Shown piece after piece: positions 13,049 through 39,959 of a stretch of 64,000 nt of DNA. Made by a program: the position numbers and the translations under genes. Position 1 is the first letter of the stretch. Each line of letters starts with the position of its first letter. Under the pieces are notes generated by a model. It was not told the origin of the DNA. It saw only the letters and a list, made by a program, of their open reading frames with translations, and ran no database searches. The DNA comes from Sipunculus nudus (taxonomy: Eukaryota; Annelida; Sipuncula; Golfingiida; Sipunculidae). The stretch lies in the NCBI GenBank assembly GCA_026874595.1, contig CM049316.1, positions 63,965,176 through 64,029,175 on the forward strand, written 5' to 3'.

Positions 13049-13187
13049 ATGGGATGTTTCGATGAAGAAAAAAATTTGGAAGATAAGGCATTACAAGAAC
13101 GCCATAAAGCTATAGAGAAAGAGCTAAAGAAAGAAAAAGGGCAATACAAGAAAGAGTCCAAAATAACACGTCGGCTCCTAATGCTAG
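13049..13187 (+). CDS. Galpha (s-like) first exon, copy 1
   Basis: It encodes the N-terminus of a heterotrimeric G-protein alpha subunit, which couples receptors to effectors at the plasma membrane. The peptide starts MGCFDEEKNLEDK, with a Gly2/Cys3 acylation-type start. It continues with a highly charged alpha-N helix ([13 protein letters not shown]) and ends with the beta-1 strand TRRLLMLG. The last Gly codon is split after its first base at donor GTAAGT (13188). This phase-1 boundary before the P-loop is the one used by Galpha genes. Length is 139 nt, equal to copy 4. The ATG at 13049 was chosen because it aligns with all four copies. No frame break is visible. SKITRR differs from the canonical ATHR before the strand. 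The P-loop exon was not found. An alternative is a dead partial duplicate. Confidence 0.75.
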
Positions 13188-13215
13188 GTAAGTTTACGTT
13201 TATGTTTATATATAG

Positions 13216-13445
13216 CAGTGATGTAGTCGAGTCCACACAAAACGTGTCCGAGTGTAAGTTGGAGTCCCAGCTACACGAGCCCAAAGGCTATGAAACGAAA
13301 GGAAAGTCTGAGTCCTTTAAGTTTGATAAAATAGAAATTTACCAAGTGTATTAGAAGCGAATTCCAGACTTGTTGGGGATTGCAAACGGAACAAAATCCG
13401 AGTCCTTTAGGTTTGAGTCCAGGTCTTATACAAATCTCCCTATTA
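13216..13445 (+). repeat. GAGTCC-rich dispersed repeat, copy 1
   Basis: It starts CAGTGATGTAGTCGAGT, as at 53778, and continues with spaced GAGTCC/GTCCGAG hexamers. It begins 28 bp after the splice donor of Galpha exon copy 1, so it inserted in the intron. Related reverse copy at 14640-14793. The CAG start is hAT-like, but no matching right end or target duplication could be fixed. Confidence 0.55.
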
Positions 13446-13589
13446 AAAGAAGTTAAAATGGAAATTTGAGACTTGAGTTCTCACTTGAATGTTTAATTAG
13501 GCTACATTTAGCTCCCGATGCATGAGCTTAAGCTTGGTATATGGAGATCTGTTTAATTATCTGTCAGTAGTTTGCATATATAGTTCAAA

Positions 13590-14280
13590 CTAAATAATAA
13601 TAATAAAAATTATATTAATAATAATAACATTAAGTTTTTATAATAATAGAAAGACCATTCTACGATGGTCGGACTCGCAGCACAATTCACACAAACACTA
13701 ATACAAACTTAAAATTTCATGGAACCCTACTCCCTGTGCCTTTCCCTATCCAGCTTTCCTTCTCATCTTTTCTCGCGTGTTTATCCATTGAGACTAACTA
13801 AAGAAAAACATATGATACATATTAATGACCAAAACCTTGCCGAAAGAGATATGTTTTAAGTTGGTGTTAAATAATTTACGATTTTCTAAGTGTATTGGGA
13901 AGCAGAATCAAGACTTTTGGGGTTTTGGAACTTACGGAACGTTCATCGTCTTTTATATTACACTTTGGTACTTTCAGAAGATTTCCGCCAGCCGAACGCA
14001 GCGTACGCAAAGGCCGATATAGGTTATTAATTTTTTAGACAAATATGATGGAAGTGAGCCATCGAAGTGGCGATTAACAAAAAAGGTAATTTTGTATTAT
14101 ATGCATTACTTGAAGGGAAGCCATTGGAGCTGTTTCAGCAGCTGGGTGACATGGTCAGACTTACGCTTCTTATTAATGAGACGCGCAGCATTATTCTGAA
14201 CCGTCTGCAGCCGAGAGACTTGCTCTGCAGGTAACATAGCAAGAACTGAATTACTGTATTCCAGGCGAGATAATTATGTG
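13590..14280 (-). mobile_element. LINE 3' fragment (RT C-terminal region plus AT-rich tail)
   Basis: The minus strand encodes the conserved C-terminal region of CR1/L2-like LINE ORFs: SRLEYSNSVLAMLP, RLQTVQNNAARLI, DHVTQLLKQLQWLPF, then DGSLPSYLSKKLI and finally HQLKTYLFRQGFGH with a stop at 13822-13824. Stops and frame changes interrupt it. An AATAAT-rich tail lies at 13590-13640. The 5' end breaks off near 14280. It belongs to a different LINE lineage from the 8-10 kb element, judging from its C-terminal sequence. Confidence 0.75.
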
Positions 14281-14639
14281 GCGAAAATGTGCCGACAGCA
14301 CGAATTAGTAGGGAGGAAAAGCCGGATGAAGCTCGAGAAAGGCCTCACGTCATATACTACTGATATAATCATACATGGAAAGATTTTAATCAATCTTTAC
14401 ACCGAGATCATTCACGGAAGTTCCGAAAAGGAACAGTGCTGCCACCAACGCTTATGGACTCACTGTCAATCATCCGCAGACGGGGCCTAGATCCAGCATG
14501 CAGGCATAACTTGTCGGTATCAATTTCAGTTTATTGCTAGTCATGCATCCATGATAGTACATCCACAATACAACCCTGTATGCTAATATTAAGTAAAAAG
14601 CACGTGTAAACCAACATTAGTTTTTTTACTACGGAGATT

Positions 14640-14793
14640 TGTACTGGACTAGGACTTGGACTCCGGTTCCAAATGACTCAGACCCGGAGATGCTGGAATC
14701 GAAATTCAAGGACTCGGACCTGGCCTTGGACTCGAATGGCTCGATTCGGACTTGCACCCAGACTCGGATGAGGCTTACTCCACTACATCCCTG
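14640..14793 (-). repeat. GAGTCC-rich dispersed repeat, reverse copy
   Basis: The reverse complement begins CAGGGATGTAGTGGAGTAAGCC and carries spaced GAGTC motifs, matching the start of the copies at 13216 and 53778. Confidence 0.55.
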
Positions 14794-14849
14794 ATCGCGA
14801 TTTATGCTAAACATCTTGAATCCTGACACGACCTTTGTCGTCAGTCGTC

Positions 14850-15165
14850 CCCTTAAGGGAGGAATATCAAAAAGGGAAGCCGTGTGTTATCCTATCCCAT
14901 AGGTAAGGATCTGAAATGGTTTCTCGATTCATTCTGGATATCTCCATTCCAGGCCCGGCTTTTGTCTACAGTTCTCATCTTGAAACGTTTGATCGTTGAT
15001 GATAAACTTCACCTTTTAAATAAATCCACGTCATATATCCCGTCCCTGCTGGCCCTGTTTCTGGCCACGTGCTTCTATAGATCTGAAGTGTTTTGTTTAT
15101 TCTTTACTTCACCTGGTGATCCTGTAACCGCAGTATTTCCGGTTCCTGGACTTGACCCTGGTTGG
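14850..15165 (+). repeat. Segmental duplication block X, copy B
   Basis: It is the partner of 7640-7890, with the same motif order and orientation (AATAAATCCACGTCA, GGCCCTGTTTCTGGCCACGTG). It lies 3.2-3.5 kb upstream of exon copy 2. Confidence 0.75.
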
Positions 15166-15627
15166 CGGCGAGTGAGAGATTGGTCTGTCTCGTGAAGGAC
15201 TTCAGAAAATGGTCTTTTGTATCATTTCTTGGTCATATCATATATTTCCACCGATTATTTTATAATTTTAGATCAGTTGTTAGCTTGCGTTGCCCCTTTC
15301 CAGTGAATGAATGGTTTGCGTCAATATTATATCTCTGGATGAATGCATTTATGGATAATAATTTTTATGTTGTAGTTCTTTATTACAAAGGGCAACGCAA
15401 TGAAGCGGTAAACTGAATCTTCAATGCAATTTAAAAGGGACCACCCATTAAAATCATGAACTTAAATTAACCGGACTGTAGGAGACCTACTTCCTAAAAC
15501 ATTCACTCTTGCAACAAGCTACCCACGAAACCACCCCTTGTTTCCCTCAAATTCGTTATAATCACATTTCAAGCTATTATTGATGGGTACTATCTTGAGT
15601 CCTCTTAGTAAAAAAAGTTTAAAATAT

Positions 15628-15950
15628 CCCTTTGCCTTTTCTGAGTTCAAAGGAGAAAGGATGCCTAGAGCTCACTAATTTAAATAATTTCATTTCCTTC
15701 ATGTAAGTTGTCATGTAAATGAGGGGAGGCATTTGGCATGAGGCATTTATATTAATATTCCTTGTTGTATAATTCAAGAATTCGTAATTAAACGCGGTAA
15801 GCTAATTGATTTTAAAACTAAATATCATTGTCTTTTCTGAGACGCTGCGACTAACAAACCATCTGGAAAATAATCTGGAAACAATTTATCATATATTCCA
15901 AATAAAGAAGGCATGCAATCTATATTATAGTTGACGATGGTCGCACTGGA
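15628..15950 (+). repeat. Segmental duplication block Z, copy B
   Basis: It is near-identical in long stretches to 19499-19810: CTAATTTAAATAATTTC, AAACGCGGT-AGCTAATTGAT and TTTTCTGAGACGCTGCGACTA. It ends with GACGATGGTCGCACTGGA. This end is the uninterrupted form of the site that holds the hAT MITE in the other copy. Confidence 0.85.
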
Positions 15951-15992
15951 CCTTTGAAACGGAATTCCTCTGTGGCCACGCCTTGCTGGTCC

Positions 15993-16400
15993 AGCAAACG
16001 TATTCCAAATCTCATTATGTTATTAAATATTATATTTAGATTTTACATAAAAAGAGCCCAATTCCTGGAGGAAAACATTTTTTCTATCTTTTTTTTCTAT
16101 AAAAACATGAGGTTGTGTAATATGTTCAAAAACTATTGGCACATCTTTGAGCACTGTCAACTTGGCAGTGACTTCACACACTGGGAAATCCCCTGTGACT
16201 AAAAATTCTAGATCTCAGTAAAAACACAGTATTTCTGCCACTGTCAGTCCCAAATTATCAGGAGAGAATAAAAACAGCAGGAAGTAACGTTACTAGATCT
16301 TAGTTGTTGATAAAATTCGGTCCATGATGTCACATGCGTAAGAACCGATCAAATCAGGGCAAAGTCTGGGATCTCAATGAAATCCTTCGTTCACACAAAA
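15993..16400 (+). repeat. Segmental duplication block Y, copy B
   Basis: It is the shorter partner of 11279-12240 and lacks that copy's ~570-bp middle segment. It follows block Z directly. Confidence 0.7.
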
Positions 16401-17479
16401 AACGCACATGGAATATGATAACTTAACCTTCATATGTACGTTTATGGACTTGAACTTTGGGGGAAAATGTAATTGTGGCATACGGGGGGGAAGGGTTATT
16501 TTCCTTATTTCTCCATAAATCCAGAGATGTTTCAAATAATTTTCGAAAGTGCTATTACAGCGCCATCTGTCGGTAATCACGATTGTGTATCACGAGAGAA
16601 AACAGTTTTTTTACTGAGAATAAAGGGCCTCGACCCACACAGCGGAGACTCGGACTCACAAGAGTACGACTCTGCTGTTCAGCAATTGTTGGAGTCAAAA
16701 CCGGACCCCCACAATGCACCGGGGCTCCTTAATACACCAGCGGCGTACGTAGGTACAAATGTAATGAAGAGTACAATGAAGTCCGTTCAAGCGTGTTGGT
16801 TAAGATTTTTTTCCCAAGCAAATTACATAAACATTTATGGAAAAAGTAATATTTTATAAGCACGCGTATGTGAAATTAAAACCGAAGGTTTTTTAGTTTG
16901 AATTTTGTCAGAGGATACAAGTGTTCTCGGCCGTCCGACAGAACCTAATCAGAAGAGATTCGTTTTGAGTAAATAAAAAATACCTTGACCAGCATGTGAT
17001 GCTGCTATTTTGTTCCGTAGCTAGCAGTGCAAGAAGAAGACATACAGTTCCAAATGAGGGTTTAAATTCCTTGAAAGTTGAGTTAAGATAACGCAAATTT
17101 CTCATAACAATATATGTGCACCATTGCACCCATCACGTATTTGCTGCATATTTAGTAGCCACAAGTGGGGCTAGCCTGTTGGCCTACCATGCAACCGGTG
17201 ACGGGCATTCAGCATGTTGAGAGACAGGGGCGGACGATAATGGATAATCGGTTGCACATTACCTTGGAAATAAGGTCAAGGTCAAAAATAAATATCAGGT
17301 GCAGTTCTGTGACCAATGCCTAATATTGTGCCCAAAAGGCAGCTTTGAAAATCAGCCATATTTGTTTTCCATCTGCGTAAAATGGTGAACAAATTATTGA
17401 TATAGAAATAAACTCATCATGATCAGCCTCCTATTAGTCGCCCCTTCCCACCATACGGAAGGAGGCTTAATCACTTGAG

Positions 17480-17705
17480 AGTCATTGGGGATTGAACAGA
17501 CGAGGAATAACATGCTCGGCTCCCTCCGCTGGCGACCCGGGTTCGATCCCCGGCGTGGCTATAAGAATGGTTTGTACAGTGGCCCGTCCAAAACCGATGG
17601 TTTTCTCCGTGTTCTCCGGTCTCCTCCAACTCCAAAGACTACCGAACGCCACCATCTGGGCCATAGAGAGCGCATGGTATTAGTTATAATAATTAGTACA
17701 ATACA
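17480..17705 (+). mobile_element. tRNA-derived SINE
   Basis: A Pol III box B (GGTTCGATCCC, 17540-17550) follows a weakly preserved tRNA-like head (ACATGCTCGGCTCC). It is followed by the SINE body: GTCCAAAACCGATGGTTTTCTCCG, CTCCGGTCTCCTCC and a CGCCACCATCTGGGCC tail with ATAATAATTAGTA. Related degenerate pieces lie at 25245-25372 and, in reverse, at 30625-30800. No cloverleaf can be drawn, so it is not a tRNA gene. Confidence 0.75.
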
Positions 17706-17744
17706 TGGAAAATAAAAAAAATTTATTATTACATAGAGCAAACA

Positions 17745-18405
17745 ACTTCAAAAAGCACCAAGCGTGCATTTAGTAGCATAACTATTTATAGATCTGACTG
17801 TATTTATAGTGAGTCCTTGGCAGTATGAAACTGTGATATACATAGTCGTAAAAACATGATACGCGTGAAAGATAGCGGTTATATAGAATTCACAGTTTGT
17901 TTGTCAACTGTTGTCAGTTGCTAGGGATTATGTATATAGGTACTCTGTGCTTTAGAAAAAAAAACCTGAACGTGCTATAGAAAAAAAATTGCTGAGTAAG
18001 AGGGTCGTTTCACGTGTGGTAAACTCTAATCCGTCCCGCGGGACGTGCCAAAAGTAAAAAGTTCCAGTCGAGTTTTTTGCCCCAGATTTATAATGCCCCC
18101 CCCCCCCCACCCAAAAAAAAACCTGAACGTGCTATAGAAAAAAAGTTGCTTAGTAAGAGGGTCGTTTCATGTGTGGTAAATGCTAATCCGTCCCGCGGGA
18201 CCTGAGTGCCAAGAGTGAAATGTTCCAGTCGATTTTTTTTTTGCCCCAGATTTATAATGCCCCATGATCCACCCGTGACCGGTAAATACAAGAATTCCAT
18301 AGTTTGAGGTGAGCGATTGTGAACGATCCGCCGTAGGAGAGAGTATGTCGTTCGTCATATTAGACCGGTAGTAACATATTTGGGTGTCCAACAAACCCAT
18401 TAATA
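17745..18405 (+). promoter_or_regulatory. Block U upstream of Galpha exon copy 2, with internal duplication
   Basis: It matches 20297-20783 upstream of copy 3 almost throughout: AACATGATACGCGTGAAAG, GTTTGTTTGTCAACTGTTGTCAGTTGCTA, AATCCGTCCCGCGGGAC, and GAGGTGAGCGATTGTGAACG with CATATTAGACCGGTAGTAAC just before the ATG. A ~157-bp part (17964-18119) is repeated in tandem at 18121-18262. The palindromic TCCCGCGGGA is present in both. It is likely a duplicated promoter and 5' UTR. Confidence 0.55.
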
Positions 18406-18535
18406 ATGGGATGTTCCGGTGGTGAGACAACTTTGGAACAAAAGGAAGCCAAGAAACGTCATAAACGTATAGAAAAAGAACTGAAGAGAGATAAAAAGAA
18501 AAACAAAGAACTAGTATATCGGGTCCTCTTGGTCG
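18406..18535 (+). CDS. Galpha-like first exon, copy 2
   Basis: It is a 130-nt exon starting MGCSGGETTLEQKEAKK, with the charged alpha-N helix RHKRIEKELKRDKKKNK and beta-1 strand YRVLLVG. It stops after the first base of the Gly codon at donor GTAAGT (18536), the Galpha phase. It is three codons shorter than copies 1 and 4. It is closest to copy 3, with nine base differences by eye, five of them changing a residue. Its pre-P-loop strand departs from the canonical HRLLLLG, so subfamily assignment is less sure: it could be a divergent Galpha-s relative or resemble q-type N-termini. Frame and splice donor are intact. Confidence 0.7.
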
Positions 18536-18780
18536 GTAAGTTTTCCAGGATTTTTATATTTAGCAACATCTTAATGTACGCCTGATTAATGTGTACAAAT
18601 AACTGAACGATATGTATTTTATTTTAAGATGATCAGACCGAATGCACAGTTCCCTCTTTTTTCCAATATGGCCGACCGAGTTACACGTGCCATATAACGG
18701 TCCACTTCCATACATCCCAAAGCACAAATCTAAGGTTAGTCGCAAAATTTCTAAATATGAGGTCCTAGTACAAAAGCGGA

Positions 18781-18797
18781 ACCCCCCCCCCCCCCCT
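18781..18797. repeat. poly-C tract
   Basis: A run of about 15 C in the intron 250 bp after exon copy 2. Confidence 0.9.
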
Positions 18798-19064
18798 CCA
18801 TCGACTGTTTTATTCATATCCGATGCTAACCCAACAATTAAATCCAAATCCGATTATACCTATTTTGAGTAAAATTGCTACACACTATCCCTTTGAATAA
18901 TAAATGAACCAACGGATCTAAAATCATATTTATTGCAAACAAGGGCAATGTTGATCTGTGAAACAGATCTTGCATGTCCCCCGCCTGATGTGTGATTTTT
19001 TAGAAAAAAGTTGTGAATACCTGTATGAAATGGGTCAGTATCACACAGCCAGATTACCTCTGCA

Positions 19065-19490
19065 ACCTTGAAAACTGCATGAAGGTCATCCATTTTTTTT
19101 TAACCAAACCTGGCCCTTCATGAGGTTCGTCAATGCTGAAAGTTTACCTCAAATTCTTTCCGAGTTTTTACGGTAACATCATTTTAGCATTAACGCCGCT
19201 GTTACCTTGAAAAATGTGTAAAGGTCATCCACGTTCGAATTTGACCTAGCCCTGGATAAGGTGCATTAATGCTGCAAGCTTGGTGACTGTACCTCAAATT
19301 CTTTTAGAGTTATTGCGTTAACATCATTTTAGCATTATTGCCGCTGGACCTTGAATTGTGTCAAGATCATCCATATTCGAACTTGGCCTAGCACTTGATG
19401 TTGTTCATCAATGCTGTAAGTTTGTTGACTGTATCTCAAATACTTTTCGAGTTATTGCGTTGGCAAATGTTGGACGGACGGACGGCACGA
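19065..19490 (+). repeat. Tandem repeat, ~3 units of ~135 bp
   Basis: Three consecutive units carry CCTTGAA, AAGGTCATCCA, TTCGAAYTTGRCCTAGC, CATCAATGCTG-AAG, CCTCAAATTCTTTYCGAG and TTATTGCGTTAACATCATTTTAGCATT in order. The array ends at GGACGGACGGACGG. This is a noncoding minisatellite-like dispersed element. Confidence 0.75.
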
Positions 19491-19498
19491 CGGAAAGA

Positions 19499-19802
19499 CG
19501 AACTTTTCTGAGTTCAAAAGAAAAGGATTTTTAGAGCTCACTAATTTAAATAATTTCTTTTCCTTAATGTAAGTTGTCATGTAATTGAGGGAGGATTTTT
19601 GGCATGAGGCTTTATATATATATATTCCTTGTTGTATAATTTAGGCATTCATAATTAAACGCGGTGAGCTAATTGATTTTAAAATTAAATATCATCGTCT
19701 TTTCTGAGACGCTGCGACTAATTAACCATCTGGGAAAAATAATCAGGAAACAAGTTATAATATATTCTCAATATAAATGGCGTGTTCTCTATATCAATGT
19801 TG
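19499..19802 (+). repeat. Segmental duplication block Z, copy C
   Basis: It is the partner of 15628-15950 in the same orientation. Its right end, at the GACGGTGGT site, is interrupted by the hAT MITE. Confidence 0.85.
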
Positions 19803-19810
19803 ACGGTGGT

Positions 19811-20084
19811 CAGGGGCGTCAATTAAGGGGGGATGGGGGGTATATATACCTCCACTTTTTGGCAAGGGGGGGGATTGCCAATGTAATCACCCCCCCCCCC
19901 CCCACTTTTCAGAGAATAATATCATAATATTGCAAATGAAATATATAAATAAATACATTAAAAGACATTGGATCCATTTACTTAAAAAATGTTATATCTT
20001 AACCTTGCTTTGTATCACAAAAAAAAAAAACTTATTTTCTATTACAATTTTATAATTATTTGAAATATGATTAACATTGGTATG

Positions 20085-20138
<54 letters not shown>

Positions 20139-20283
20139 CACATATATGTAAATATATATATATATATATATATAGTTTAATATGTCACTCAGAGACGCTG
20201 AAAAGTCATATGTGTGTGTGTGTATAAAAATATACAAAGTCATCCCCCCCCCCCCCACCCTGGAAGAAAAATTGACGCCACTG
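19811..20283. mobile_element. hAT MITE, copy 1
   Basis: It begins CAGGGGCGTCAAT and ends ATTGACGCCACTG (inverted: CAGTGGCGTCAAT). It is flanked by a perfect 8-bp direct repeat ACGGTGGT (19803-19810 and 20284-20291). The homologous uninterrupted site occurs in block Z copy B (15934-15950). The 473-bp body has G-rich then C-rich tracts near the ends and long TA runs inside. It has no transposase. The family repeats at 28810-29260. Confidence 0.9.
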
Positions 20284-20296
20284 ACGGTGGTCGCAC

Positions 20297-20783
20297 TGGA
20301 CTAAACAACTTTAAAAAATGCACCCAGCATACATTCAGTAGCATGACTGTATATAGATCTGACTATTTGTAGTGAGTCCTTGACAGTATGTAAGTGTACT
20401 TTACATAATCGTATAAACATGATACGCGTGAAAGTTTGTTTGTCAACTGTTGTCAGTTGCTATAGGGATTATATATTTAAGTACACTGTGGAATAGAAAA
20501 ACGCTGCACCTGCTATAGAAAAAAGCTGCTTAGTATACAAATCGTTACTTGTGTGGTACATGCTAATCCGTCCCGCGGGACCGGAGTGCCAAGAGTAAAA
20601 ATGTCACAGTCGATTTTTTTGGCCCAGTTTTATAAAGCCCCATGATCCACCCGTGAACGGCGATTATGAGAATTCCATAGTTTGAGGTGAGCGATTGTGA
20701 ACGATCCGCCGTAGGACAGAGTATGTGGTTCGTCATATTAGACCGGTAGTAACATATGTGGGTGTCCGACAAACCCATTAATA
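20297..20783 (+). promoter_or_regulatory. Block U upstream of Galpha exon copy 3
   Basis: It is the partner of 17745-18405 and lacks the 157-bp internal duplication. It includes AATCCGTCCCGCGGGAC and the AATCCATAGTTTGAGGTGAGCG-like stretch 100 bp before the ATG. It is presumed promoter and 5' UTR, because it travels with the exon. Confidence 0.55.
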
Positions 20784-20913
20784 ATGGGATGTTTCGGTGG
20801 CGAGACAGCTGTGGAAGAAAAGGAAGCCAAGAAACGTCATAAACGTATAGAGAAAGAACTGAAGCGAGATAAAAAGAAAAACAAAGAACTATTATATCGG
20901 GTCCTCTTGGTAG
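20784..20913 (+). CDS. Galpha-like first exon, copy 3
   Basis: It is a 130-nt exon starting MGCFGGETAVEEKEAKK, with the same alpha-N helix as copy 2 (RHKRIEKELKRDKKKNK) and beta-1 strand LLYRVLLVG. The Gly codon is split at donor GTAAGT (20914). Gly2 and Cys3 suit N-terminal acylation. The first ~30 intron bases (GTAAGTTTGCCAGG, TTTATATTTAGC) are also shared with copies 2 and 4. Only about 2.2 kb separates it from copy 2, too little for a full intervening Galpha gene, and none is seen there. It is thus an alternative first exon or a partial duplicate. Confidence 0.7.
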
Positions 20914-21079
20914 GTAAGTTTGCCAGGATTTTTATATTTAGCCTGATCGATGTCTATAAACAATAGAAGGAGAGTTACTTTATTTTAAGATGATCAGATC
21001 AGTTTCCCCGTATCTGAATATGGCCGACCGAGTTGCACTTGCCATTTCACAGCCCATTTTCACTCATCCCATCATAAAC

Positions 21080-21725
21080 AATGGAAGAATAAATTACAGA
21101 CCGGTTTCCTGTGTCATGTAAAATATTACCGAAAAAAAGTTATTCATAAAATAATGTATCAATGCATAAATTACATCTAGTGTAAAAGTGTTCAATAAAT
21201 GATTATGAAAAAGCATTGATCAAGACCATATGTATTAATGCATACAGGAAACCTACTGTAAAAGCTTTCAACTTGGCTTTAGAAACTCTTTTTTTTCCTG
21301 CAAACACTTGTTTAATGTTTCTGACAGATTACATAAGATAAGACATCGATAATAACATACGCTCTTTACACAGCGCTTTACCTATAGGCCTACTACCTAT
21401 ATCGTAGGCGCAAGATTTCCGCTGCCTCGGGAGCGTAATAAAAACAATGAAGGCAATTTTGTGGAATGGTCATATTGACTTATAAGAGTTGATTCATAAT
21501 TATTATATAACTAATACTATAAAAGCCTTCAACTTGGCTTGAGAAACTCCTTCTCTGCAAACAATTGTTAATTGTTTCTGACAGATTACATAAGATAAGA
21601 CATCGATTATAATAATGATGAAGGCAATTTGTGGAATGGTCATATTGACTTATAAGAGGCGTTCGACACGGCAAATTATAGAATTTTATTGTATATACCA
21701 GAAATGTGCATTGTCAGGAAATAGA
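21080..21725. other. Noncoding repeats
   Basis: A ~110-bp phrase is repeated in tandem here: TACTGTAAAAGCTTTCAACTTGGCTT, CTGCAAACA, TGTTTCTGACAGATTACATAAGATAAGACATCGAT at 21255-21355, and again at 21515-21612. The piece 21360-21445 is an inverted match to 56783-56815 plus 57440-57472. No gene recognised. Confidence 0.6.
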
Positions 21726-22117
21726 CCTCCGCCATGTGGGTGGTCCTTTATGTGGATTACTCCCCTACCTGTGTTTTTATTCACTTGTTGACAAATATTT
21801 TCCCAGGTTCATTGGTGCATAAGCTCCCTAACAAGTGTTTGCGTTCACTTATTGGACCAACATTATCATGTTCAATCGTGCGTATGTGACGGCACATTTG
21901 TGAATATTCCTTGAAGTCCTTCCCGGATGGAGATCATGAGCCGGACTCAAACCAAAAACGAATCTATTCTTTATTGCCCAATTTCCGAGGTGCAATAAAA
22001 ATTCCCTGAGATTCCGCTCATGATTGTGTGAGTTATATTGTGAACAAACACACACACAAATACACACACACGGATACAAACATGAACGGGAATGAACGCA
22101 TACACTCCTGGCGGAGG
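21726..22117 (+). repeat. CCTCCGCCA-family repeat, copy b
   Basis: It starts CCTCCGCCATGTGGG and ends CTCCTGGCGGAGG, so the ends are inverted CCTCCGCCA/TGGCGGAGG. Internal landmarks are GGTTCATTSGTGCATAA, CACATTTGTGAATATTCCTTG, TTCCGCTCATGATTGTGTGAGTTATATTGTGAACAAA and a CACA run. It is probably a nonautonomous DNA element. Confidence 0.75.
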
Positions 22118-22119
22118 CG

Positions 22120-23170: not shown

Positions 23171-23174
23171 TACT

Positions 23175-23640: not shown

Positions 23641-23644
23641 TTAA

Positions 23645-25240: not shown

Positions 25241-25244
25241 AATA

Positions 25245-25372: not shown

Positions 25373-25374
25373 GT

Positions 25375-26509: not shown

Positions 26510-27375
26510 ACTGCTGCGCCCTCACTTTTTGTTGACCTCTGACCTTTCCTCTCTGCCCAGCGTCCATTTGTGCGTCTGTTTCCACACATAAACCCACATA
26601 TCTCGGGAACTGTTTGACCGATCGGGCTAAAAATTTTGCACAAATGAAGCCCTTTGAAATCTGTATAACATACACTAAAATGGTGGCGCCACCTGCAACC
26701 ATTTTTGCACAGCGTCCATCTGTTCATCTGCCTTGGGATAAAATCACTCATATCTCAGCAGTGGTTTGACTTTTCCACCTAAAATTTTGCAGGTTTATAC
26801 ATCCTGGACAGCTTTCTCGATTTTATGAAGGTGGCGCCACCTACATTCACGTTTACTCTGCAGACATCCAAGCTCATATCTAGGGAACCATTTGACCGAT
26901 CGAGCCAAAATTTTGCATGTGTATAGATCTCACATAGCTCTTTATTATAGGCAAAACTGGTGGCGCCACCTGCAACCATTTATGCACAGTGTCCATCTGT
27001 TCATCTGCCTTGGGATAAAATCACTTATTTCTCAGCAGCGGTTTGACTTTTCCACCTGACATTTTGCAGGTTTATACATCCTGGACAGCTTTCTCGATTT
27101 TATGACAGGTGGCACCACCTACAATCACGTTTACTCTGCAGACATCCAAGCTCATATCTCGGGAACCGTTTGACCGATTGGGCCAAAATTTTGCTTGTGT
27201 ATAGATCTCACATAGCTCTTCATCATAGGCAAAACTGGTGGCGCCACCTGCAACCACTCAATCCATGCTCATATGCAACACACCTCACTCTTTTCCCCTT
27301 GCCACTTAATCCATTCCTCACTTCACCCGTCCCACTCTGATTTCTGCGGATACACATAGTCGCTTGTTGACTACC
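26510..27375 (+). repeat. Palindrome-bearing tandem repeat block D3, copy 1
   Basis: It contains the 12-bp perfect palindrome GGTGGCGCCACC at 26682, 26830, 26959 and 27237, and a one-base variant at 27108. Spacing alternates about 148 and 129 bp, so the real unit is a ~277-bp dimer. It is matched in inverted orientation by 45655-46980, including the flank GGGACGGGTGAAG-like and the GCGACTA end. Several short frames recur only because the repeat recurs. Confidence 0.8.
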
Positions 27376-30989: not shown

Positions 30990-31880
30990 TCTTATGAATG
31001 AATTTCACGACCCCCAAAATAAAACAGAAATAGTGCACTTGCAATGCATTCTGGGGCAAATACAACCGGATCTGATTCTATTTATAAATAAAGCGGCCAT
31101 CTTAGATTTTGACCAAGATATGGCGAGTTCCGTTCGGCAATAAATCTGAATAATGGTCGGGATAATTATTATTCAAATTTTCATTCTTCTTTCATCTGTT
31201 GCGCGATTCTTCTAAATATGTAAATTAACTGCTGGACATACGTGAATATTAAGCAAATCTAGATAAAAAATACGGCTTTTGAGTACCTTGAGGGGTTTTG
31301 AACCACAAAAATTGAATTTTCTCAGGCCAAAAACATAGGAATAGAGTACTTGCAGTGTTTCTATGGAGCAGATAACTCAAGTTTTTTAATTTTTTAATAT
31401 GGCGGTCATCTTGGTCACCATCTTGGCTTTTGACCAAGTTATGGCGAGTTCCGTTTGGTCACAAATCTGAAAATATTGAATATGTTCTGGACAATCAATA
31501 TTCTAAGTTTCATTCTTCTTTCAGCTGTTGCACGATTCTTCTGAATATGCAGATTAACTGCTGGACTTATGGGAACATTAAGGAAATATTGATTTAAAAA
31601 AAGGTAGTGAGTACCTTGAGAGGTTTTTAACCTAAAAAAATTGAATTTCTCAGACTGAAAAAAAGTAGAAATAGAGTTCTTGCAATGCTTTCTAGGGAGA
31701 TTATAACTTAAAATATTGGCATTCTTTAAAAGATGGCCGCCATCTTGGATTTTGGCCAAGATAATCCATTTTCAGCTTGGCCCTATATCTGAAATTCAAC
31801 ATTAAGCTGCAAAGGACACGTCTGCCGAATTTCATGATTCTTTCATTTTTTGCACAATTATTCCAAATATGGGAGCTATA
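30990..31880 (+). repeat. ~315-bp tandem repeat, about 2.5-3 units
   Basis: Units recur near 31120, 31438 and 31755 (partial), with a partial unit before 31120. Each carries TTTTGACCAAGNTATGGCGAGTTCCG, TTTCATTCTTCTTTCA, GTTGCRCGATTCTTC, AACTGCTGGAC, GAGTACCTTGAG and a GATGGCCGCCATCTTGG-like phrase. Open frames through it are not conserved. Confidence 0.75.
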
Positions 31881-32092
31881 TGGAAATCATGCTATCAAGC
31901 AAACATAATATTCATTTATTCAACAAATGCTTAATATACAAGTTTAACCTCGAAACGACCACTGACGGGAACTCGATACAGTGATCGAGTGTTTTTTAGG
32001 TGGTTGTCTAAGCGAGGTCTTATATAAAGAACAAAAAGATCTAGACCATAAACAAGTGCTTGCAATTTTGAGCTGGTCGTTACGCATTGTTT

Positions 32093-32093
<1 letters not shown>

Positions 32094-32178
<85 letters not shown>

Positions 32179-32192
32179 TTATATATATATTC
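32094..32192. repeat. (TA)n microsatellite
   Basis: About 70 bp of nearly pure TA followed by TATTTATA variants. The frames on both strands are artefacts of the repeat. Confidence 0.95.
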
Positions 32193-32689
32193 ATTTGTTT
32201 ATAATATGTTTTTAACTGGTAAATTTCATTCTGTCAGCCTTCTATATGTATAAAAGTACTCTATCCTTTTACGATGATTATTTTAACTACACATAATTAA
32301 ATGGTAATACACGCACCTGCATGTCAAATGCCATTGATGGCATTTTGGGTTAAGTGTACAAGCCTGAAAGGAGTACTCGAGTCCGGGTAATACTTACCCA
32401 GTTCTTGTATATATGTGTAAATGTATATATGTGTACATGTATATCTATATGCTACTCCAAAGCTATACAGACAGTCTACATTTACAGATCGACTTCAAAA
32501 TCTCTTGTCTTCTTCTTTCTTCTGTCATTCTCTGTTTTTACGAGATCTCAAGTATGGCGGATTTCCAAAAGCCAGCCTTTTTGCACAATATTATTCCTAG
32601 GTAACAGATTTGCAATTGATATTTTTTTTCCTTGAAGTTATTTCCAAGGTGTAAAGCGTAATAGAACAAATATAGATTTTTTCTTAGAA

Positions 32690-33800
32690 TATACCGTGAG
32701 TGCTATTGTTTAATCATCACGCCACCTTCATCTACTGATTACGACTCCTACGCCTCTCGCACACGATGAAATTTCCTGGTAATGACTTGACACCATAGCC
32801 TTACAAATCCATTGAGTAGGCGGTATATAGCCCTCAGCCGTCGTTTGCATGCCGTTCTCACGTGTCTTTAGCTTTAAGTTGGTGAAAAGTTAAAATTAAT
32901 ACCGTATGGAGGTAAGATTTTTAGGGTTGATTGGTTCATTACCTTTTTGTCCCCGCCTCCGCGGTTTGTCTGTCCGGCTGTCTGTCTGTCTGTCCGTCCG
33001 GTTTTCGTTTACGTGCGATAACTTTCCTAAATATTATCCGATTTTCTTCAAATTTTGTTTAGTGATTGCTTTCATGCATACCTTGGGTGGGATTGTCTGT
33101 CTGAAAAATTATTATCATCAGCTCCAAAACAAAACCAAAAAAATTCCATTTTGTTCCCCATTCACAACAAAATTGTGACATGTGGAGACATCTTCAGGGG
33201 ACAATGAACACTAAAACAGAGGCACTATGGCACTGCAGTATGGCTAGGGAAGCAATGAATGCTTTATTCAAAATCACGCAACTTCATTAAAGCCGGCTAT
33301 TCACATACTTTTTCTATAGAATTAATGTGATTTCTGGCTTGATGGGAAAGCTCTTAAAACGCCTCTGTGATGGATATGCGGAAGCTGAATGATCACTAGA
33401 TGCAAAACATCTATTGCAAAAGTCTGATAACTCAAACTTGCCCCCAGATGTCCTTGTTGACTGTGTTTGGATTTTTTTTTACCCCTAACATGTTATAAAC
33501 ACGTGGACATAAACAGAATAAACAGCCTGTGTACAGTTGGGTCAGTGTTTTCTGACCTATTTTCCTAAAATTTTCAAGGGATTATCTTTAGTTAATAGAC
33601 GTCAGATATCGGAATAGGCCTCATTAAGATTATCTGCCAAGAAAGGATCAAGACTAAAAGCAGTATTTTTTTTTAAGAAACCATGTCATATGATAAGGTA
33701 ATATGATTCTGAGTATGTTTGCTTTATCTAAATTCAACTCCAGGAGAATCGGCTAGCTACATTTCTTGTATCTGGTTAACCCCTGTCGTTTGACATTAAG
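32690..33800 (+). repeat. Local tandem duplication, left copy
   Basis: It matches 34350-35025. The first part (GCCACCTTCATCTA, ATTACGACTCCTACGCCTCTCGCAC, GTAGGCGGT) is offset by about 1.65 kb. The second part (R2-like sequence, AATAGACGT-AGATATCGGAATAGGCCTCATTAAGATTATCT, CAGTCGTTTGACATTAAGTACA) is offset by about 1.27 kb. The left copy thus has about 390 bp extra (32890-33285), which includes TGTCTGTC-type repeats. Confidence 0.8.
33285..33640 (+). repeat. Dispersed repeat R2, copy 3
   Basis: GTGATTTCTGGCTTG, GATGCAAAACATCTATTGCAAAA, CCCCCAGATGTCCTTGTTGA, CCCCTAACATGTTATAAACACG. It lies inside the left copy of the local duplication. Confidence 0.7.
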
Positions 33801-33811
33801 TACAATTCCAG

Positions 33812-33962
33812 GTTTCCAAGGAGATTTTTTATGGACCTGCCTGGATGTCAAGTTAGAAGATTCAATGTCTGGTGGTTACGATTTGTGCCCTGTGAACGGA
33901 CAGCCAGGCTGCCGAGCGGATGACGGACAAAGAGTGATCGCAATGGTTCAGATGACTTTTCA
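33812..33962 (+). other. Candidate internal exon, unidentified
   Basis: The acceptor ATTAAGTACAATTCCAG is followed by a 151-nt open stretch (encoding among others LWTCLDVKLED and GGYDLCPVNGQPGCR) and a donor TCA/GTGAGC. The frame runs to a TGA only beyond the donor. It has balanced, non-repetitive composition and four cysteines, which looks coding. It ends with two bases of a codon. The candidate at 43988 begins with one, so the phases would fit. I recognise no family. The acceptor lies at the edge of a duplicated repeat, which lowers confidence. Confidence 0.35.
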
Positions 33963-34349
33963 GTGAGCTGAGCTAAAAATGGAAGTTGTAGTTCTGGATT
34001 TTTGCCTTTTCTTTCCCGTCACAGACTGAATGATCACTTTTATGTCCATGTGTAAATAAGTGATATTATCAGTCATTCATATCAAGGCTTTACACCACAA
34101 AATTGACTATGGTAGGAGTTTTTAAACAGTCTACTATATTTCTGTGATAATTTTATGAAATATGTCTTGCTTCTTTTAAAGTTCATAAAGATTATTCATA
34201 TTATATAAATTTGATCAAAGAATCAAAGAAAATATGAGAGAGTATTGACTTGTGTTTAGATTTTTTTATCATAATGAAAGAGTGTACACTTAAGTAAACA
34301 TGCAGTACCATAACCTGTTACATGTATAGAACATATAAAGGCTATTTTC

Positions 34350-35025
34350 TAAGAATATACCGCGAGGGTTAAGGTTTATTTAGTACGCCACCTTCATCTA
34401 TTGATTACGACTCCTACGCCTCTCGCACCCATTGAATTTTCCTGGTAATGATTTGATACCATAGCGTTACATATCTATTGTGTAGGCGGTGTTTATAGTC
34501 CTTAGCCGTTGTCTGCATGCCGTTCTCACATGTCTTTTGTTTATAAGTGCCTCTGTGGCGGATGTATGCGATTGTTTATGTAAAAACCTGTTGACAAACT
34601 GGACAACCATGTAAACTAAGGTCGCTTGATTTTATGCCGAAGCTGAACGGCCAGTAGTTGCAAAACGTCCATTGCAAAACTCTGATACGTCAAACATGCC
34701 ACCAGATGTATTTGTTGACTGTGTTAAGATTTTTCATCGGCCCCCAACATGTTATAAAAACTTGGATATAAACATTTTATAAAAATGTTCAAGGGATTAT
34801 CTTTAGTTAATAGACGTTAGATATCGGAATAGGCCTCATTAAGATTATCTACCAGGAAAGGAGCAAGATTTAAAGCAGTAATGTTTCCATTAGAAGCCGT
34901 GTCATGTAATAAGGTAATATGATTCTGAACACGTTTGCTTGATCTAAATTCAAATCCTGGAGTATCAGGAAGCTACCTTTGCTTATATCTGGTGTGTCCC
35001 AGTCGTTTGACATTAAGTACATGCG
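34350..35025 (+). repeat. Local tandem duplication, right copy
   Basis: It is the partner of 32690-33800 and includes an R2 copy at 34555-34870. Its match ends at GACATTAAGTACA, just before the position where the left copy continues into the candidate exon at 33812. The right copy does not carry that exon. Confidence 0.8.
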
Positions 35026-35455
35026 ATGTTATGTCACTCTGAATCTGAGCGATACATTGTGTATGTTTCAACATATCTAATCCAGAACTGGCTGGCCAAG
35101 GGTGAAACTTTTATCGAACCCCCAAACTGGCACAACGGTAAGGAAGCGAACACCTAGTCAACACCTGGCGAGACTCCTGTCTTTTCATGAGAATTATTTA
35201 ATATCTAATGTATTCTTATCCCTACATTTTCTGTGGCCATTCGGTGCATCTGTATACACAAGTTCAAGAATTGTTCTTATCAGACAGATTGTAAAAGTCA
35301 CATCGTATGATCTATACTAAGATAACAAAATAAGGACATTCAAGGAAAGCTATGCACATAAATCACTATAAGAATATTATACAATGTGTGACTATATAAG
35401 TTTCGGAAAAAAATTACATCCATAAACTAGAAATCTGTATTTTAAGGAATACAAG

Positions 35456-35777
35456 CCTCCGCCATGTGGGAGGTTCCTATTGTGGGATGCTCTCACAATC
35501 GTTTTTACAATTACCCATTCGACCCATATTCCTAGGTTCATTCGTGCATAAGATGCTGTACATTCGTGAATAATCCTTGTTAAGATTTCTGAATCCGGAT
35601 CATGTGTTGGATCAACACACAAACATCTAATAAAGTCTTTATAGGTCAATGCCCGAAATGTACCGAAAATTTCATTAGATTCTGTCCATGATTCCGTGAG
35701 TTATGTTGTGAACAAACAGACAAACACACCCAAACACACACACGAATGGACATGAACGCACACCCTCCTGGCGGAGG
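35456..35777 (+). repeat. CCTCCGCCA-family repeat, copy c
   Basis: It starts CCTCCGCCATGTGGGAGG and ends CTCCTGGCGGAGG, with the family's internal order (GGTTCATTCGTGCATAA, GATTCCGTGAGTTATGTTGTGAACAAAC, CACACACACACG). The ~45 bp upstream (ACTAGAAATCTGTATTTTAAGGAATACAAG) is also shared with copies b and e. Confidence 0.75.
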
Positions 35778-36454
35778 CAAATATCATGAAATACTGTGCA
35801 CGTTACATCCGTTTCACATTTTTCTTGATGACATTTACGGAAATAATGCATTTGCATCTCAGCGCCTTCTAGTATTGGAACATTGGACGTTGAACGATTA
35901 AACATGAAACATTATTTCAGCTTGACGCAATGAAGCCTTATGTATTCTTGTTTGCAATCCACTCAAATTATTAAGAATATACTAAAGAATTATCCAGGTT
36001 AAATGCCTTACTCAATCGTTATGTGTTTCACTAAATGAACACAAGATGGCGCTGATATACAATAGCGGTTTACCGTAATTCATAATAAAGACATATGCTT
36101 AGGTACTCATTATATATAGGTCATTCCTTCAATGGGTGTCCATTGGTCTTTGGTGATAATTATGAAATGTGCATACATTTCTGTCGAAACTGTGACAATG
36201 AATGGTCAGTAATAGGACTCCGGCGATAAAGAATAAACTGTTTTATCCAAATTCATATTTTTTTTTTAACTTTGAGTAATCACTTTGTATTTCTAAAGTA
36301 TACTGATGATGTAGCTAATGATATATATGATACTAAACTGAAGGCAAAAAGAGTCATTTGCTCCTTTGCAAGTGCGGGATAATACAAAAACAAGATGGCG
36401 GTTGTGAGTTCCCACTTGTGTATTTACGAGGGAATTCCATGCTGCTTGTGCCAT

Positions 36455-36620
36455 TTTTTAAGCTGGCTATTTATCTGCTGTATTTGTAGAATCCATGTGA
36501 TTTCTGGCTTACTCTGTGTAATTATTAATGAACTGTCAGTAACTCCTGTTTAGAAAAGTTCTTCTAATATGACCGGATAAATGAGCTTGTTTATCTACAA
36601 GTTGTTAGTAAAGACATTAC
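36455..36620 (+). repeat. Dispersed repeat R2, copy 5 (truncated)
   Basis: ATTTCTGGCTTACTCTGTGTAATTATTAATGA, AAAAGTTCTTCTAATATG and CTTGTTTATC match the R2 5' half. The 3' half is missing. Confidence 0.65.
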
Positions 36621-36884
36621 AGGCGCCCATGCTGAAAAAGAGGAAAACTAGACGACCATAGGTAGAGCGCTTGCCGGAAGTTGATATATAACATACGCAC
36701 GGGGAGACAGGAAGAGAGGGGGACCATGTAAAACAGTAATTTGAATGAGCAATGTTCTGGGAGAAAGGAAACAATAACACGTATGTATTAATGCTGATAT
36801 TGAAAAGTCGCGAACGAACGGACAGACAGACAGTATATATTTCCTGGTTTTATTTTAGCTGTATGCCTTTCCGAAGCATTGCTA

Positions 36885-36950
36885 AACAATAACTCTATAA
36901 TGACTCTATAATGGACTCTATAATGGACTCTATAATGACATGTCAGATCA
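36885..36950 (+). repeat. GACTCTATAATG minisatellite
   Basis: Four tandem copies of (G)GACTCTATAAT. Confidence 0.8.
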
Positions 36951-37069
36951 AAGAACAAGCGGGCAAGAGAAGTTGACATCAACAGACGAACAGACAGACA
37001 TGCTGACAAAACCTTGATGAAAGGTGACCAGACGTCATAATAGGGAATTGTTATGAACAAAATAATATT

Positions 37070-38200
37070 TTAAGGTTTTTCGATGACCTTGACGTTTGAC
37101 CTGTCATAATTAAAAACGAAAGGCTTATTGAAGTTTTATTTTCTATCAACTGTATAATTTTTAAAGCGATTGGCCGCATATTTTGGAATATCTTGAATTT
37201 CCCCATAAAATGCGTAACCATGGTAACAGCAGATTGATGCAGCGAAGGAAGGCCATGGAATGGCGATTAAAATGAATAAGTTTATGCAGCTAAGATAAAT
37301 TTTGATGAAGATATGAAGAAAAAACGATTTTGTGGTTTCTTTTGACCTCCTCTAAAAGACATCAGACTTTATGAAATTCATGTATTCTATCAACACTAAA
37401 ACAATTAGAGGGACTGCTCAAAAAATCTAGCATGTGGAATGCCATATGTCATACGAAACAAGAAACAGGAAGGCGAATTTGATGACATCTGACAAACAGA
37501 CGAAAATACTGACACACTGCCACATCTGAGATAACAAATGTCTAGATATTCTTATGACGATGGTATAGAGGAACAAAATGAGCTATAGTTTATAAGGATA
37601 GGCCTCTTTTTTAAAGAAGATATGACGAAAATTTTATTTTGAAGTTTTTCGATGACCTTGACCTTGAATTTTAATCTATTTTAAAAAAATCAGTAACAGT
37701 TTCAAGAAATCGTTCTGATATACGATATGTATAAGTTACAAAGTGATTTCTGCAAAATTGCGGCCTGTAGAATGTTATAGTTCATAGGCAAGAACCAGCT
37801 TGCAGGCGAAATTGAGGACAACTGACAAACGGACGGATATTCTGACAAAGTGACACAGAGTGGAACACAAGTAGCCAGATCATTTCTAAAGAAGACAAAG
37901 CGGAGAAAAATGAGCCACAGATTATGAAGAAAAGCTCAATATTGACAAAGTTATGAGGAAAATAAGATTTTGACGTGTTATGATCAACTTAACCCTGAAC
38001 TTTGACCTTTTAAAAAATACACATACAGAAAATACACAAGAAATCGTTCCGATATATGACATGTATAAGTTACCAAGCGATTCTTGCAAAACTGTAGCCT
38101 GTAGAATGTTATACGTCAGAGGCATAAACCAGCAAGCAGGCGATATTGAGGACAACTGACAAACAGACAGACATACTGACAAAGTGACACATCGGATATG
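37070..38200 (+). repeat. Tandem repeat, ~365-bp units
   Basis: Two clear units (about 37560-37870 and 37920-38200) and a degenerate one before share GATGACCTTGAC, AAGAAATCGTTCYGATAT, ACATGTATAAGTTAC, GCCTGTAGAATGTTATA, CAGGCGAAATTGAGGACAACTGACAAAC and TGACAAAGTGACAC. Noncoding. Confidence 0.7.
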
Positions 38201-38480
38201 ACAGTTGACTAAACCATCTCATGGAGAAAGCAAAACATAACCTGAGGTGGTTGGTTGCATACGTGTAGAGGTCACTAGTTATAAAATGCAAGGACTTCGG
38301 GCCGATTTGCCGACAGATGGTCTAGCTTAATATGTTTGGATTATTTTGACCTCCACGTGTAATGAACACGCGGATATGATCATAACGAACAGCCTGTGTG
38401 CAATGAATCGGCGTTTTCTGGCCCATTTTAAAAAGGTTCAAGGTTTTATCATCGGTTAATAGACGTCAGATATCGGAATA
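38170..38480 (+). repeat. Dispersed repeat R2, copy 6
   Basis: Diverged: AAAATGCAAGGACT, GCCGACAGATG, TATGTTTGGATTATTTTGACC, AATGAACACGCGGATAT and ATAGACGTCAGATATCGGAATAG keep the R2 order. The last is the extension also seen after copies 3 and 4. Confidence 0.6.
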
Positions 38481-38592
38481 GAACCCTGTAAGCATGACTC
38501 GGTCGATTTACTTCAATCTGTGCATTATGACAGTGATATATCAGGATATGACGCGAATCTCATTTTCTTATATCTATGTTTGCTTATGTTTG

Positions 38593-38873
38593 CCTCCGCC
38601 ATGAGGTTATGCGTTCATCCCCGCTCGTCTATGTGTTTTTTCACAACATAAACTAACGCAATCATGAACGGAATGGAATTTTCAAGGCATTTCGGGAATT
38701 GGCAAATGAAGGATCGATTACATTTTGGTGTCGATTTGGCGCATTATCCGGATCTGGGAATATTCACATATGTATAGACACATGCACGAATGAACTTAGG
38801 AATATGGACCGAATAAGTGAATGCAAACAATGTTTTGGGAACATCCAATAATAGGGACCCAAAATGGCGAAGG
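38593..38873 (-). repeat. CCTCCGCCA-family repeat, reverse copy d
   Basis: It starts CCTCCGCCATGAGG on the + strand and ends CCCAAAATGGCGAAGGCTTG, the reversed family start. The interior is the reverse complement of copies a-c (CACATATG, GCACGAATGAACYTAGGAATAT). Confidence 0.7.
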
Positions 38874-38879
38874 CTTGCA

Positions 38880-39435
38880 CTCATTACAATGCAGATTTTT
38901 AGTTACTTATTCTTTTATTACATGTCAGATTTTTTTAACGGCTTTGTTCACAAACAAGTCTCCTGTTTTCAATTAAACACGTAAAAATCTATTTTATAAA
39001 AGCAAACTGGAATATATAGGTCGTGCAATCAAAACTATCTATACATGTGCAGTATTTGATTAGAATCTGTCTTGCATATGCTAAGTTTGGACGGACGCAC
39101 GCCATGGAACAATATATATAAAGGAGTGCATAACAGGCATCATTTTTATCATGATGATTATCATCACATATATTCAGTAGAGAGTGCTATCTGCAGGCCA
39201 TATGCCAGTCCGTTGACAAGGTAAAAAAATATTTGCGAATGAAAGTGCGAATGAAAAATATGGTAACTGTGACATAACATTTTGGCATAACATTTAGTTG
39301 CTATAATTCTGGCAGAGATTTTCATTGCCGGTTGATTGGTACAACATATGTAGTTTATGTAGCAATTAAAATCACTCGCAAATCAAAGCGGGGAGCTGTC
39401 ACGTGACACACACAACCTCGTTCCTGATCACAGCT
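38880..39435. other. No gene recognised
   Basis: AT-rich noncoding stretch between the last repeat and block U of exon copy 4. Confidence 0.4.
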
Positions 39436-39439
39436 GGGA

Positions 39440-39820
39440 TATCCCGTCATGCCTTTGGAAGCGGCAGGTAAGTCCTAGCAGCTTCTGGCATGCCATCTAT
39501 CCATTGATTGTCAACTGTCAGTTGCTAAGTACGCGCTCCGGGGCTGGATGAAACACTGGATACTAAACAAATCGTTACTGGGCTGGTAAACTCTAGTCGG
39601 TCCCGGAGGACCTCACACAGGGAAGGCGGAGGTCCGAGTGTCCAGTGTTTTGATGCTCTAGGGGAACTTTTTTTGCCCCAGAATTTAGGAAAACCCAATG
39701 TTCGGCCTGTGAGCGGTGACTACGAGATATTCGTAGATTAGAGTGACCGTTTGTATACAACTCGCCCGTGCGTAGCAGAGTGGAATATACATACGTGTGT
39801 GTCCAACCAACCGGTCCACG
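39440..39820 (+). promoter_or_regulatory. Block U upstream of Galpha exon copy 4
   Basis: It shares CCCGTCATGCCTT, CTATCCATTGATTGTCAACTGTCAGTTGCTA, CGCTCCGG, GTCCC(G)GAGGACCT, CGGAGGTC and ATACATACGTGTGTGTCCAACC with the other copies in the same order. Presumed duplicated promoter and 5' UTR. Confidence 0.5.
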
Positions 39821-39959
39821 ATGGGATGTTTCGGTGGCGGAGAAGGGGGCGGGACAAACGTGGAAGATAAGGCATCGAAGGAGCGCCATAAAGCAATAGA
39901 GAAAGAACTAGAGAAAGATAAGCAAAAATACAAGGCCACACATCGGCTCCTCTTGTTAG
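39821..39959 (+). CDS. GNAS: Galpha-s first exon, copy 4 (most canonical)
   Basis: It encodes the N-terminus of the stimulatory G-protein alpha subunit, which at the plasma membrane activates adenylyl cyclase after receptor-driven GTP loading. The sequence is [20 protein letters not shown], then the alpha-N helix ([15 protein letters not shown], the Gbeta-gamma contact) and [10 protein letters not shown], which matches vertebrate Galpha-s ATHRLLLLG. Met1-Gly2-Cys3 fits the palmitoylated Galpha-s start. The Gly codon is split after one base at donor GTAAGT (39960), the exon 1/exon 2 phase of known GNAS genes; the P-loop would come from exon 2. A Gly-rich insert (GGGEGGG) replaces the usual short linker. 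Exon 2 is not seen in the remaining 24 kb. The start codon is fixed by alignment of all four copies. Confidence 0.85.

Follow-up and report, generated by a model that had tools for sequence, protein, structure and literature searches.

The stretch of DNA analysed here, referred to as the window, is 64,000 nucleotides (nt) of the Sipunculus nudus genome (C11:63965176-64029175, + strand, where C11 is contig CM049316.1 of a 1.43-Gb assembly in 153 contigs). It carries four short exons resembling the first exon of a gene for the G-protein alpha subunit Galpha-s, which we number c1 to c4 in window order; a fifth first exon, the canonical exon 1, lies past the window end. As the first-pass annotation of this DNA had described, the four stand in one orientation at the positions it gave, each encodes the MGC start, the alpha-N helix and strand beta-1, and all end at one split Gly codon followed by a GTAAGT donor. 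We found all four intact, a tandem series of paralogous first exons with no shared exons between them. Their split codon and intron position are those of the canonical exon (donor GTAAGTTT in c1-c4, GTGAGTAC in the canonical exon), and the length differences among the exons are all multiples of three. The five starts lie in good contexts (A at -3, G at +4). An in-frame stop lies 45-51 nt 5' of the ATG in c1-c4 with no in-frame ATG between; in the canonical exon an in-frame ATG precedes the start by 12 nt. Within 100 nt, out-of-frame and other ATGs were counted once each for c1, c2 and the canonical exon, twice for c3 and not at all for c4.

A single Galpha-s core downstream of the exons

We examined a wider, gap-free region of 264 kb (C11:63895176-64159175), using a human Galpha-s sequence as the probe for core exons. 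Besides c1-c4, this region holds a single ordered set of Galpha-s exons, all on the + strand: the canonical exon 1, which the first-pass annotation had not noticed, then an intron of 115 nt, then exons 2-11, complete and in order with the P-loop, DVGGQ, NKQD and the ...RQYELL end. The annotation had seen no exon 2 onward within the window, which tblastn bore out, and had suggested looking for such exons downstream; the core that we found there is on the same strand as c1-c4, and the donors of all four are in phase with it. The distance to exon 2 is 43.5 kb from c4, 62.5 kb from c3, 64.9 kb from c2 and 70.3 kb from c1. Joined in silico to exons 2-11, c1, c2, c3 and c4 gave proteins of 379, 376, 376 and 379 amino acids (aa) with 0 stops. 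The annotation had also named separate complete cores for each copy as the case that would speak against a common one; no second copy of exons 2-11 was found in the 264 kb, and the remaining Galpha matches in the genome map to other contigs or, on C11, to a place 17 Mb away.

Scanning the 264 kb on either strand for an ATGGGNTGY start with an open frame of 100-199 nt and a phase-1 G/GT donor in any of six allowed forms, we recovered exactly five exons, namely c1-c4 and the canonical one. A tblastn search of the same region with the four peptides added one chance-like stretch of 18 residues (E 0.044), and neither search showed a degraded first-exon relic there. Genome-wide, queries with the c3 peptide found the five first-exon loci only, and those with the c4 peptide found the five loci and two weak matches (E 2.7 and 7.2) at other Galpha genes. 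Because their coding DNA differs by 7-31% among themselves and by 40-46% from the canonical exon, c1-c4 are not haplotype copies of one exon.

The description of all four copies as Galpha-s-like stands firmly for c4 and weakly, by sequence alone, for c1-c3. The c4 peptide, the most Galpha-s-like of the four, matches solved Galpha-s chains at E 1.3e-12, keeps the Galpha-s hinge ATHRLLLL as no other copy does, and recovers c1-c3 as a tblastn query in the 64 kb at E 1.6e-12 to 5.1e-11. The two other copies searched against solved chains, c3 and c1, matched weakly (E 1e-4 and 1.8e-3, respectively); their best chains are Gq-labelled constructs that contain two copies of the segment, and none of the Gs chains does better than 0.01. 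The Pfam profile PF00503 gave E 0.043 for c4, below the family cut-off, and no match for c1, c2 or c3. The tie of c1-c3 to Galpha-s would thus run mainly via c4 and via position.

Table 1. Exons and upstream features of the locus; positions are those of the window unless prefixed by C11.
Feature	Position	Strand	Remarks
19-mer CACAGGGNAGGCGGAGGTC	12847..12865	+	starts 202 nt before c1 ATG
c1, alternative first exon (putative), coding part, 46 aa + first base of Gly	13049..13187	+	139 nt; donor GTAAGTTT
T-run + CCCAG site, local repeat before c2	18073	+	
T-run + CCCAG motif before c2	18237..18249	+	acceptor-like or promoter part
c2, alternative first exon (putative), coding part, MGCSGGETTLEQKEAKKRHKRIEKELKRDKKKNKELVYRVLLV + first base of Gly	18406..18535	+	130 nt; donor GTAAGTTT
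c3 upstream flank, 294 nt	20490..20783	+	genome search: only itself and c2 flank
c3 upstream block common to c4	20614..20698	+	same c3/c4 alignment as the c4 block
T-run + CCCAG site before c3	20615	+	
c3, alternative first exon (putative), coding part, MGCFGGETAVEEKEAKKRHKRIEKELKRDKKKNKELLYRVLLV + first base of Gly	20784..20913	+	130 nt; donor GTAAGTTT
19-mer CACAGGGNAGGCGGAGGTC, second copy	39616..39634	+	starts 205 nt before c4 ATG
c4 upstream block common to c3	39668..39754	+	local alignment score 51; highest of 300 shuffles, 30
T-run + CCCAG site before c4	39669	+	
c4, alternative first exon (putative), coding part, 46 aa + first base of Gly	39821..39959	+	139 nt; donor GTAAGTTT
Canonical exon 1 (43 aa)	C11:64048373	+	human Galpha-s probe; outside window
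Exon 2 with P-loop	C11:64048618	+	19.4 kb beyond window end
End of core, ...RQYELL	about C11:64137276	+	

The upstream exons share promoter-side sequence pairwise, apart from the canonical promoter. The 19-mer that precedes c1 and c4 has no other exact match in the 1.43-Gb genome (two in all, and none for a reversed-pattern control), and the upstream alignment of these two exons is identical at 22 of 25 nt, a score reached by none of 300 first-order shuffles. The block common to c3 and c4 lies about -170 to -66 from the ATG (0/300 shuffles reach its score). Similarity was not above chance between the upstream sequences of c1 and c3 (79/300 shuffles reach the score), nor when those of c4 and c3 were compared with the canonical upstream sequence (266/300 and 230/300). 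The c3 flank matches the c2 flank at 18117-18405 with 88% identity and, in a second, partial match, at 17960-18099 with 79%. A dispersed repeat carrying the exons was considered as well and is ruled out for the c3 flank, since its matches genome-wide are confined to itself and the c2 flank. The motif TTTTTTG[CG]CCCAG occurs at four sites on the window + strand, all of them before c2, c3 or c4 and none at c1; the similarity among the c2, c3 and c4 flanks runs past it to about -250, and in c3 it is adjoined by TATAAA. The shared upstream elements fit putative promoters. We also observed that the stretch before c2 at 17956-18204 is tandemly duplicated (157 nt apart, 93%), doubling the motif there.

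Relatives of the c4-type exon and other Galpha genes

Relatives were sought in a collection of 5.77 billion proteins clustered at 90%, a clustering that can hide isoforms of this kind. We fetched 123 proteins, 3 from a search with the c4 N-terminus and the best 120 of 7979 from a search with the canonical protein; named Galpha-s proteins stand at 75-91% identity to this locus's protein among those best 120 of 7979. A quick tree of the core gave a group of ten with Capitella, Lineus and Lingula (SH-like approximate likelihood ratio test, 96), in which the nearest protein is at 92%. The two residues that distinguish c4 from most canonical exons (E in LEKD and K before x-THR) occur together in 3 of the 121 proteins in which the pattern could be read: P0025, P0030 (Lineus longissimus, isoform X2) and P0108 (Lingula anatina, isoform X2). 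The name "isoform X2" implies a further isoform in Lineus and in Lingula. Thirteen of the 123 proteins score nearer to c4 than to the canonical exon or tie, several of them from arthropods and with a small margin or none, and P0003, which the exon-1 tree groups with c1-c4, scores slightly nearer to the canonical exon; the alignment score alone would be a weak sign of the c4 type.

The exon-1 tree was built from 35 peptides over 44 columns, comprising the five of this genome and 30 of the 123 picked by hand, mostly lophotrochozoan. It places c1-c4 together (support 93/86), joins them to Lingula X2, Lineus X2, P0025, P0003 and P0001 (86/85), and leaves the other peptides, this genome's canonical exon among them, outside that group. 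The grouping appears weak, because the alignment has 44 columns and the branches among c1-c3 are long. In approximately unbiased (AU) tests, one clade of this genome's five exons was not quite rejected (p 0.06). The tests neither showed nor rejected a clade in which c1-c4 are joined by Lingula X2, Lineus X2 and P0025 (p 0.27). The c4-type exon may be older than this lineage.

Besides the three matches of this locus, a Pfam search of the genome listed 37 at E 0.001 or better, spread over six contigs. Going by human labels, we take nine loci that we examined to be Galpha-i/o-like and Galpha-q-like genes, one intron-poor Galpha and one divergent Gs-like gene. The last, at C12:47339660-47348895, is 55% identical to human Galpha-s, its best label, in one exon; a first exon of this gene did not turn up. 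The locus described here is therefore the one canonical Galpha-s that we saw, but the Gs family has at least one further gene in this genome. Elsewhere on C11, two tandem copies of one internal exon with splice-like borders (47144739-47144864 and 47146653-47146781) lie in a Galpha-i/o-like gene and are candidate mutually exclusive exons; by its C-terminus, that gene is presumably Galpha-o.

We also looked for another gene between the copies and exon 2. Pfam was given 73 of the 95 stop-to-stop frames of at least 85 aa (from the window and two further pieces of DNA, frames across piece borders being unlisted) and one shorter reverse-transcriptase-like frame; the other 22 frames overlap exons, AT-repeats or other submitted frames. 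The matches were RVT_1 (E 2e-5), Sigma_M_inh (8e-4) and APOBEC4_like (0.003), with one member each, and no host gene was seen by Pfam, a search that small exons could escape. No Rfam match and no tRNA was found, which removed non-coding RNA from consideration. The RVT_1 match belongs to reverse-transcriptase-like frames on the - strand at window 9124-10472, probably a remnant of a long interspersed nuclear element (LINE). The window further contains a tandem repeat with a 277-278-nt period at 45753-46791 and 26604-27256, the two mutually inverted and 75-93% complementary, and a minisatellite with a 42-46-nt period at 42670-43067.

Reading of the locus and its alternatives

We consider it likely that the locus is a single GNAS-type Galpha-s gene of about 159 kb, with five alternative first exons and one shared core. 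This reading starts from what the DNA holds: the exons, their phase and strand, the one core and the shared upstream elements. The window would then be the 5' part of the gene, with the canonical first exon 19 kb beyond its end. Each of the five first exons would bring a start codon of its own and, probably, a separate promoter, and the phase-1 donors would splice each of them to the shared exon 2, which begins with the P-loop. Promoter choice would set the alpha-N helix and the alpha-N/beta-1 hinge on a constant GTPase core, such that membrane attachment, Gbeta-gamma binding and receptor contact vary and the GTPase and effector parts stay unchanged. The first-pass annotation had pictured alternative first exons on one core; the single core, the donors in phase and the lack of rival cores in the 264 kb agree with it, and the splicing itself is the part that we infer.

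The predicted N-termini differ in charge and at the hinge. Net charge after MGC is +3 in c1, +7 in c2, +6 in c3, +2 in c4 and +4 in the canonical exon. XL-alpha-s, which has a longer, basic, palmitoylated N-terminus, remains at the plasma membrane, and activation of PLC-beta-4 by XL-alpha-s is matched by a Galpha-s targeted to the membrane (PMC9294334). His41 at the Galpha-s hinge forms part of the pocket for intracellular loop 2 (ICL2) of the receptor, and the contact of ICL2 with Galpha-s is described as the critical step for GDP release (PMC7308389). In our alignment, c4 has His at this position with ATHR kept, c2 and c3 have Tyr and one extra residue, and c1 has Arg and four extra. Because ATHR is kept in c4 and the hinge is changed in c1-c3, we would predict that c4 acts as a Galpha-s with a different membrane end and that receptor coupling is altered in c1-c3.

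Signs of function are the good start contexts, the shared upstream elements, the lack of broken copies in what we examined, and the coding divergence, measured as the proportions of synonymous and nonsynonymous differences (pS/pN; Nei-Gojobori (NG86) counts, one-sided Fisher tests, six overlapping pairs, uncorrected p values). The pairs with c4 point to purifying selection, with pS/pN of 0.49/0.17 for c1/c4 (p 0.0027), 0.49/0.22 for c2/c4 (p 0.009) and 0.41/0.20 for c3/c4 (p 0.029). Ratios estimated with YN00 were 0.47 for c2/c3 and 0.49 for c1/c4, and synonymous divergence (dS) from the canonical exon is saturated. The exons of c2 and c3 differ at 9 of 129 sites, the introns next to them at 30 of 155 (p 0.0018), and their upstream sequences at 24 of 273. 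In a neutral simulation from c3 under six settings, the chance of an intact frame per branch was 0.06 to 0.56.

Several observations weigh against a working array. The excess of pS over pN is not significant for c2/c3 (0.14/0.05, p 0.10), c1/c2 (0.38/0.29, p 0.24) or c1/c3 (0.33/0.30, p 0.43), and the YN00 ratio exceeds 1 for c1/c2 (1.32) and c1/c3 (2.30). Conversion of exon plus promoter between c2 and c3 is possible, because the low divergence covers the upstream DNA as well. Four independent intact copies would arise by chance with a probability of 1e-5 to 0.1 under the various rates assumed, and the intact frames by themselves are therefore not decisive. Among the 5.77 billion proteins, the c3 N-terminus had no match at E 10 (3 candidates), and the c4 N-terminus gave three proteins, none from this genome; but this genome's canonical protein is also missing from the best 120 of 7979 (best 91%), and isoforms of this kind can be hidden by the clustering at 90%. 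Finally, transcription, splicing over 43-70 kb, own promoters and functional differences are all things that we infer from the DNA.

We judge unlikely an alternative in which only c4, perhaps with c1, works and c2 and c3, or c1-c3, are silent, drifting tandem copies of exon and promoter. It would account for c4 alone keeping ATHRLLLL and matching solved Galpha-s chains well, and for c1-c3 being more diverged with pS not significantly above pN among them. However, c1-c3 have kept the start, the frame, the donor and the upstream elements, the length differences are multiples of three, and no decayed copy was seen in the 264 kb.

The T-run and CCCAG motif raises another possibility, that c2-c4 are second exons used in a mutually exclusive way, onto which an unseen 5' leader is spliced through this acceptor-like sequence about 150 nt before the ATG. 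We think this quite improbable: the motif precedes c2, c3 and c4 and is found nowhere else on the window + strand, and the upstream similarity extends up to and beyond it, but that similarity continues in promoter-like fashion to about -250, c1 is without the motif, and TATAAA adjoins it in c3. It is very hard to credit that each exon belongs to a complete Galpha gene of its own whose other exons were lost or misplaced by assembly, even though tandem duplications and repeats do occur in the region. With one core only in a gap-free 264 kb, other Galpha matches far from it, and the coding divergence given above, we rejected this alternative; the divergent Gs-like gene on C12 exists, but queries with c4 and c3 found no such exon there.

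Comparison with known gene arrays

Tandem variable first exons before shared exons are found in UGT1, GCNT2/IGNT and the protocadherins, and the S. nudus locus resembles them in having tandem paralogous first exons ahead of shared ones. Those genes encode enzymes and adhesion proteins, whereas the variable part here is a G-protein alpha-N helix, in five exons known from sequence alone. In vertebrate GNAS, exons 2-13 serve as the splice target of the NESP55, XL-alpha-s and A/B first exons (PMC2671723). One Galpha-s core with upstream alternative first exons leading onto exon 2 is common to our reading of this locus, GNAS and the XL exon of GNAL (PMC2671723, PMC9294334, PMC5896119). Unlike c1-c4, which are short, paralogous and each encode MGC and a whole alpha-N helix, XL consists of a single long exon whose resemblance to exon 1 is limited to the 3' part of exon 1, and NESP55 and A/B encode no normal Galpha start. 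Lokits et al. 2018 place the XL exon in all vertebrate genomes that they studied and describe it as apparently absent from other deuterostomes, but whether it existed before the vertebrate genome duplications could not be confirmed there (PMC5896119). The same study reports exon duplications in cephalochordate Galpha genes (preGNAI exon 6, preGNAQ exon 5 and preGNAS exons 12-13), which are likewise local and diversify a protein-contact region but involve internal or last exons, in contrast to the exon 1 duplicated here (PMC5896119).

The best reading of the locus would be a GNAS-like alternative-first-exon gene with an array of full alpha-N exons in the style of UGT1 and the protocadherins. 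In the literature searched, which was covered at listing level and mostly without subscription papers, no Galpha gene with an array of first exons was reported. To our knowledge, it is mainly the vertebrate GNAS locus for which alternative first exons of Galpha-s have been described. As a tentative extension, which we think less likely than not, a second type of Galpha-s first exon may have arisen early in spiralians and persisted in Lineus and Lingula X2, while growing in this lineage into an array selected by promoter choice, whose alpha-N charge and hinge tune membrane hold and receptor coupling; first exons would then play the part that separate Galpha genes have in other lineages.

If the single-gene reading is true, Galpha-s has on more than one occasion acquired alternative N-termini through the choice of first exon, and the locus offers a natural series of alpha-N and hinge variants on one constant core. 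Such a series would make the role of the N-terminus in receptor choice, membrane hold and Gbeta-gamma preference testable.

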